Below, one piece after another: positions 15,716 through 15,871 of a stretch of 64,000 bases of DNA; position 1 is the first letter of the stretch, and each line of letters opens with the position of its first letter. Below the pieces are notes generated by a model. The model was not told where the DNA came from, made no database searches, and was given only the letters and a program-made list of their open reading frames with translations. Location of the stretch: positions 1 to 64,000 of the forward strand of contig MEDZ01000006.1 in the NCBI GenBank assembly GCA_001724275.1, in the 5' to 3' direction. This stretch comes from Gemmatimonadetes bacterium SCN 70-22. Lineage in GTDB: Bacteria > Gemmatimonadota > Gemmatimonadetes > Gemmatimonadales > Gemmatimonadaceae. Made by a program: the position numbers and the translations under genes.

Positions 15716-15744
15716 TTGTCACGCGTCCCGGCCCAGTGTAACTT
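15716..15744 (+). promoter_or_regulatory. Promoter of the trpS leader
   Basis: TTGTCA (15716-15721) and TAACTT (15739-15744) are separated by exactly 17 bp. The predicted transcription start, 7 bases after the -10 box, coincides with the A of the leader-peptide ATG at 15751, so the leader mRNA would be leaderless. Confidence 0.65.
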
Positions 15745-15750
15745 GAATTC

Positions 15751-15819
15751 ATGACGCTGACACACTGCGCACGTGCCATCACCTGGTACTGGCGGCCCTC
15801 TTCACGAGCGGTCCGCTAG
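15751..15819 (+). CDS. Trp-rich leader peptide of trpS
   Basis: A 22-codon open frame starts at ATG 15751 and ends at TAG 15817-15819. Codons 12-14 read TGG TAC TGG, giving the run T-W-Y-W-R-P. Two Trp codons in 22, placed 12 bases before a segment able to pair with the terminator stem, are what ribosome-mediated attenuation requires. It is too short for most ORF callers. There is no Shine-Dalgarno sequence, but the predicted +1 is the ATG itself. The peptide probably has no function beyond sensing charged tRNA-Trp. The gene it controls encodes TrpRS, so low Trp-tRNA would raise synthetase expression. Confidence 0.75.
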
Positions 15820-15871
15820 CGCACGTCCGTCCACGCGCACTTCCGGGGTCGCTCGACATCGAGCGACCCCG
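15805..15871 (+). promoter_or_regulatory. Transcription attenuator of trpS
   Basis: The terminator stem has 12-bp perfect arms, CGGGGTCGCTCG (15844-15855) and CGAGCGACCCCG (15860-15871), with an ACAT loop followed by CGTCGTTT. An upstream segment CGAGCGGTCC (15805-15814) can instead pair with the left arm (15846-15855) over 10 bp, two of them G-U, and so prevent the terminator. That segment overlaps the end of the leader peptide. A ribosome stalled at the Trp codons (15784-15792) leaves it free, while one at the stop codon (15817) covers it. A small self-hairpin AGCG-GTC-CGCT (15807-15817) is the alternative fold. Confidence 0.75.

Follow-up and report, generated by a model that had tools for sequence, protein, structure and literature searches.

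A putative leaderless tryptophan attenuator with a third pairing partner upstream of an auxiliary tryptophanyl-tRNA synthetase gene

The trpS2 gene and its leader region

The window, a stretch of 64,000 nucleotides from Gemmatimonadetes bacterium SCN 70-22, carries on its forward strand the gene trpS2 (15971-17164), whose product scores above the cut-off of TIGR00233. The best relatives of solved structure are the TrpRS II structures 2a4m and 1yi8 of D. radiodurans (E ~1e-110), far ahead of ordinary TrpRS, and the protein carries a 13-residue motif and a KASKS motif. The same genome has a second, housekeeping trpS with 36-37% identity to trpS2. Judged by its kinship to the Deinococcus enzyme and by the housekeeping TrpRS beside it, the gene encodes an auxiliary tryptophanyl-tRNA synthetase of the TrpRS II type, as a second TrpRS. 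An earlier sequence-only reading of this region had likened its motifs to those of the auxiliary TrpRS of Streptomyces coelicolor; the closest relative of solved structure is the Deinococcus enzyme. His43 of the Geobacillus TrpRS is an indolmycin contact; at what we take to be the same position the housekeeping TrpRS also has His and the trpS2 product has Gln, and the latter may be an inhibitor-tolerant spare enzyme. Genes of this type are scattered in their occurrence: 17 of 179 family genomes have one, as do 15 of 395 sampled from the phylum.

The sequence-only reading had described a promoter, a 22-codon leader frame with the residues W-Y-W, a 12-bp hairpin and a segment competing for one of its arms, all upstream of trpS2 and on the same strand, and these are present base for base. 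The predicted promoter (15716-15744) consists of the -35 box TTGTCA (15716-15721), a 17-base spacer and the -10 box TAACTT (15739-15744); the sequence GAATTC follows and then the ATG at 15751, which places the predicted +1 at the leader ATG. A consensus scan of the window did not detect this promoter since its -10 box matches TATAAT at only three of six positions. The leader frame extends from 15751 to 15819 and is predicted to be leaderless; its Trp codons are found at 15784-15786 and 15790-15792 and its stop codon at 15817-15819. With W-Y-W the frame has the tandem regulatory codons of a ribosome-mediated amino-acid attenuator. Rfam searches with the whole window and with the loci L145, L047, L083, L032 and L124 gave zero matches above the gathering score, and the window element thus matches no leader described in Rfam (Trp leader, T-box or others).

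Within and downstream of the leader frame four segments can form alternative pairings. R1 (15790-15800) comprises the last Trp codon and the next bases and pairs with R2 (15804-15818), a segment of the antiterminator type within the last leader codons. R2 can instead pair with R3 (15844-15855), the left arm of the hairpin, for which R4 (15860-15871), the right arm, competes. The 1:2 pairing lies over the regulatory codons, as in an attenuator, and amounts to -15.1 kcal/mol in the window (shuffle p 0.068). The 10-base segment 15805-15814 (CGAGCGGTCC), situated 12 bases past the second Trp codon, had been proposed to pair with the left arm; it does form 10 pairs including G-U, but in the window alone this is not above shuffled sequence (p 0.15-0.22). 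Mutually exclusive 2:3 and 3:4 pairings are found just downstream of the Trp codons, though without reaching significance in the window alone.

The hairpin itself, CGGGGTCGCTCG-ACAT-CGAGCGACCCCG (15844-15871), has a perfect 12-bp stem and a four-base loop and a folding energy of -25.5 kcal/mol. It had been read as a terminator. The stem is perfect, but R4 is followed by the poor U tract CGTCGTTT and not by a T run, and for this reason the consensus scan of the window detected no terminator; the window hairpin alone is not a convincing intrinsic terminator. Directly 3′ of it lies a second stable hairpin (GCGTCGT..ACGACGC, 15872-15914). As the -10 box, the U tract and the R2:R3 pairing of the window are weak when taken alone, the case rests on conservation, and this is strong.

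Conservation of the leader among trpS2 relatives

Among 92 distinct trpS2 genes of Gemmatimonadota and Proteobacteria, 60 have a short frame with WW or W-x-W in their upstream region; in controls taken from shifted positions or from the opposite strand the count was 0-8 of 80-92. None of 21 upstream regions of housekeeping trpS genes had such a frame, and in the genome of the window a convincing Trp leader is lacking before both the housekeeping trpS and trpE. The trpS2 leaders include MKTTFTPSSNFFWWRSN from Vibrio, MTVVVITFANLWWRST from Bradyrhizobium and, from Gemmatimonadota, MSLARLTSGFTSCAWWRPLSQAVPLRVRAR, MSQCLLTSRAWWWPSSGAVPLRARMR and MTCSIARSRTFWWWPSLRATR; the leader cores of the Gemmatimonadota relatives read ..CAWWRPLS.., ..AWWWPSS.., ..FWWWPSL.., ..FWRWPSL.. 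and ..CWWWLST. The sequence-only reading had made its proposal depend on conservation of the leader frame, the Trp codons and both competing stems in related genomes, and all of these are conserved.

Genes of the TrpRS II type also occur on plasmids of E. coli, Klebsiella, Staphylococcus, Acinetobacter and others (including L163, NZ_CP147089.1, and L164, NZ_CP092188.1). The leader of a Deinococcus plasmid copy is MKGKHAPCQAWWPGS, and that of a plasmid copy from E. coli ends in NRWWLPS; in both the Trp leader is unannotated. One Acinetobacter copy and one Lactobacillus copy, also checked, are without leader frame.

We aligned 57 upstream regions on the leader ATG. TTG stands at -35 in 24 regions and at -36 in another 16 (40/57), against a background mean of 1.9 per position in the same alignment, and TA peaks at -12 (20/57). 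A Shine–Dalgarno-like sequence precedes only 3 of the 57 leader frames vs 47 of 56 trpS2 starts. The gap between the -10-like hexamer and the leader ATG is exactly six bases in the window and in five more loci of Gemmatimonadota. Because the promoter-to-ATG spacing is conserved and the Shine–Dalgarno sequence is nearly absent, the leader frame is predicted to be leaderless family-wide with transcription starting at its ATG, as had been suggested for the window; this transcript start is a prediction from promoter geometry.

The pairings were compared in nine distinct Gemmatimonadota attenuators. In all nine R2 starts 0-15 nt past the last Trp codon and can pair with R3 (combined shuffle p 1e-8; the loci being related, this and the other combined p values given here make the evidence look stronger than it is). 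The R2:R3 pairing is kept in 90% of the cells; covariation of R2:R3 was not detected within the Gemmatimonadota, and across Proteobacteria the pairing covaries. R1:R2 reaches p<=0.05 in 14 of 22 proteobacterial leaders (combined p 5e-13) and is weaker in Gemmatimonadota (combined p 0.0125). For R3:R4, 90.9% of the cells are paired compared with at most 53% when the arms are slid against each other; three pairs are changed on both sides, and the covariation score exceeds all 500 shuffles. The tail of the hairpin varies, with T runs of 6-7 after R4 in the relatives L032, L121 and L124 and a poor U tract in the window, L004, L008 and L036. Locus L004 has a reduced leader, MGESAMRRAWAAH, with one Trp codon and retains R2, R3 and R4.

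The Trp leader is missing from about half of the trpS2 copies in Gemmatimonadota (among them L006, L007, L009, L010, L011, L115, L119, L122 and L125), and the attenuator has apparently been lost repeatedly. In a FastTree analysis the Gemmatimonadota TrpRS II proteins group as a single clade (support 0.90). Copies with a leader sit on both main branches of this clade, a pattern suggestive of an ancestral leader that was later lost in places. We also built a covariance model from the nine attenuators and searched 179 genomes of the family; strong matches (E <=4e-10) occur only before trpS2. The weak matches were examined in part, and L135-L137 look like ordinary terminators or chance.

These losses raise the question whether the window itself holds a decayed or chance leader, i.e., remnants of a frame and a hairpin before a constitutive trpS2. 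The weak -10 box, the W-Y-W in place of WWW and the R2:R3 pairing indistinguishable from shuffled sequence would fit such decay. Yet the frame, R3:R4 and the 15-bp pairing R3:R5 described below are all intact in the window, which moreover scores 81 bits against the covariance model (being one of its nine training sequences), and we regard a decayed leader as improbable.

A third partner of R3 near the trpS2 ribosome-binding site

A further segment, R5 (GATGTCGATGCGGCTCCT, 15926-15943), can pair with R3 together with the R3-R4 loop. In the window R3:R5 comprises about 15 bp with one bulge (-24.8 kcal/mol, shuffle p 0.005). In the family R5 lies 29-45 bases before the trpS2 start; eight of the nine Gemmatimonadota attenuators have it, at 33-45 bases from the ATG (combined p for all nine 1e-8). 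In Proteobacteria R5 is found at a like place with quite different sequences; the combined p of 2e-9 comes from an automatic hairpin choice which took the wrong hairpin in several loci. A stricter choice was used for a cognate test, in which, to allow for base composition, the R3 of each locus was also paired with R5 regions from the other phylum group. The cognate R3:R5 pairing was stronger than the cross-phylum mean in 32 of 32 loci tested (Wilcoxon 2e-10). It also exceeded the mean of the same group in nearly all loci, and overall it exceeded pairing to the gene's own coding start (p 4e-7).

The 3′ end of R5, GCTCCT in the window, is at the same time an anti-Shine–Dalgarno strand. The Shine–Dalgarno sequence AGGAGC of trpS2 (R6, 15956-15961) is predicted to be sequestered by R5 when R3 is paired with R4: its predicted accessibility in the window, 0.02, lies below all 60 shuffles, and it is 0.02 with R3:R4 forced and 0.41 with R4 unavailable and R3:R5 formed. 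Opening upon formation of R3:R5 is clear in four of eight loci (window, L003, L032, L121), and there is little or no change in L004, L005, L008 and L036. Two signals were considered and rejected, namely release of R4 as the opener of the Shine–Dalgarno sequence, which has no effect in most loci, and closure of the Shine–Dalgarno sequence by itself, which is equally common in trpS2 copies without leader. Since closure is not specific to leader-bearing copies, the translational tier is one that we infer. The sequence-only reading had been of a transcriptional attenuator; conservation supports this, but R5 as a third conserved partner of R3 suggests that translation is controlled as well, or instead.

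Comparative sequence supports the leader, the start architecture, R1:R2 (mainly in Proteobacteria), R2:R3, R3:R4 and R3:R5. Our best reading, to which we give a probability of about 0.8, is that a two-tier ribosome-mediated Trp attenuator on a leaderless mRNA controls the auxiliary TrpRS II through termination and through closure of the ribosome site. We infer the dynamic part, namely stalling, termination, the order of events, how R5 displaces R2 and what this does to translation, as follows. Transcription would start at the leader ATG. With ample charged tRNA-Trp the ribosome would reach the leader stop codon and cover R2, R3:R4 would form, transcription would end to some degree and R5 would be free to close the trpS2 Shine–Dalgarno sequence. 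With scarce charged tRNA-Trp, be it by starvation or by an inhibited housekeeping TrpRS, the ribosome would stall on W-Y-W and the exposed R2 would capture R3 and block R3:R4. R5 would then take R3 over by means of the R3-R4 loop as a foothold, the Shine–Dalgarno sequence would open and trpS2 would be made. The model requires that R5 displace R2, since an R3 still held by R2 would leave R5 to close the site. As the arrangement precedes relatives of trpS2 in three phyla, it very probably switches trpS2 on when charged tRNA-Trp runs short.

Possibly only one of the two tiers operates. In a classical transcription-only attenuator R2:R3 would compete with an R3:R4 terminator, and R5 and the Shine–Dalgarno hairpin would have no part. 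The conservation of both pairings is in line with this, as are the strong T runs after R4 in L032, L121 and L124, the last of which is without R5 and whose T7 terminator stands 22 bases ahead of the ATG. Such a mechanism would leave the coevolution of R3 and R5 in 32 of 32 loci unexplained, however, and it fits poorly with the U tracts of the window, L004, L008 and L036, given that the his terminator of the same genome ends in TTTTTCTTTTT; we consider it possible but on the unlikely side. Conversely, R3:R4 might no longer terminate in this genome and only keep R5 on the Shine–Dalgarno sequence. The tail CGTCGTTT speaks for a translation-only attenuator of this kind, and so does the change in predicted accessibility on R3:R5. 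But R3:R4 remains a perfect, GC-rich 12-bp stem, relatives have clear terminators and weak U tracts can still terminate, and we think translation-only control somewhat unlikely. Control by a protein, e.g., TrpRS2 binding its own leader, could make use of the repeated CGAGCGAYC-like motifs in R2, R4 and R5 as binding sites; this would leave the conserved tandem Trp codons near R2 and the promoter-to-ATG spacing without explanation and appears very improbable.

We therefore keep to the two-tier attenuator for the window. For the TrpRS II leader family as a whole (Gemmatimonadota, Proteobacteria and Deinococcota) we would give even odds to a leaderless two-tier switch in which R3 is passed among three partners and the stalling of one ribosome averts termination and at the same time opens the ribosome site. 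Such a three-way competition for one RNA arm would be a concrete way for a single stalled ribosome to control transcription and translation.

Relation to known attenuators and to His leaders

Like the trp attenuator of E. coli the element has segments 1-4, tandem Trp codons and the pairings 1:2, 2:3 and 3:4; it differs by its predicted leaderless start, by the position of R2 inside the last leader codons and by the extra partner of segment 3 near the downstream ribosome site. A precedent for two tiers is the control of trp by TRAP in B. subtilis, which combines termination with Shine–Dalgarno closure in the read-through RNA; there the sensor is the TRAP protein and not a ribosome on a leader peptide.

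The auxiliary TrpRS of S. coelicolor is attenuator-controlled. A candidate attenuator has been noted before trpS2 of S. avermitilis (PMC1262725), and for trpL2-trpS of S. lividans the part of the report available to us describes a leaderless leader, MMTRTCTQLWRAA, with a single Trp and two hairpins and no U-rich stretch (PMC8079986). These systems share with ours a Trp leader peptide, competing hairpins and a trpS gene, and in S. lividans also the leaderless start. They belong to Actinobacteria, the S. lividans leader has a single Trp and, in the accessible text of these papers, no R3:R5 layer is described; the likeness drawn here is one of the leaders. In the Gram-negative Sinorhizobium meliloti, trpL-trpE(G) has a leaderless Trp leader frame of 14 residues and an antiterminator/terminator switch and controls a biosynthesis gene, not a synthetase (PMC7298713). 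Ribosome profiling of Caulobacter crescentus, as far as the accessible part of that paper goes, shows a small translated frame before trpS, a likeness which covers the leader CDS only (PMC4117421).

In the sequence-only reading a leaderless attenuator before trpS in a Gram-negative genome had looked new. Given the Streptomyces and S. meliloti reports, attenuation before trpS itself and leaderless Trp leaders are already known; what is new here, as judged from the accessible parts of these sources, is the Gram-negative TrpRS II leader family and the R3:R5 layer. Our literature search found no TrpRS II leader family, no attenuation in Gemmatimonadota and no leader-peptide attenuator of the R3:R5 type, which is weak evidence as subscription papers were mostly outside the search. 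A widespread and often plasmid-borne spare TrpRS would by this leader be tied to a sensor of charged tRNA-Trp, and could be produced upon failure or inhibition of the main TrpRS.

Leader-peptide attenuation, for which we found no earlier report in Gemmatimonadota, is suggested to be in use there for his genes as well as for trpS2. Through a weak match of the covariance model (L138) we came upon a His leader before hisG. Of the 17 Gemmatimonadota genomes with hisG which were searched (L142-L158), nearly all have ahead of this gene an apparently leaderless leader frame with clustered His codons, followed by a hairpin; ribosome-mediated attenuation thus appears to be in common use in the phylum. 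The His leader of the window's own genome, MLHLLSGHHHHAHHGHALTGLGVFRVR (L145, G000:C3:146275-146820, minus strand), is predicted from promoter spacing to be leaderless too. Its intrinsic terminator has the tail TTTTTCTTTTT, beside which the poor U tract of the window stands out.
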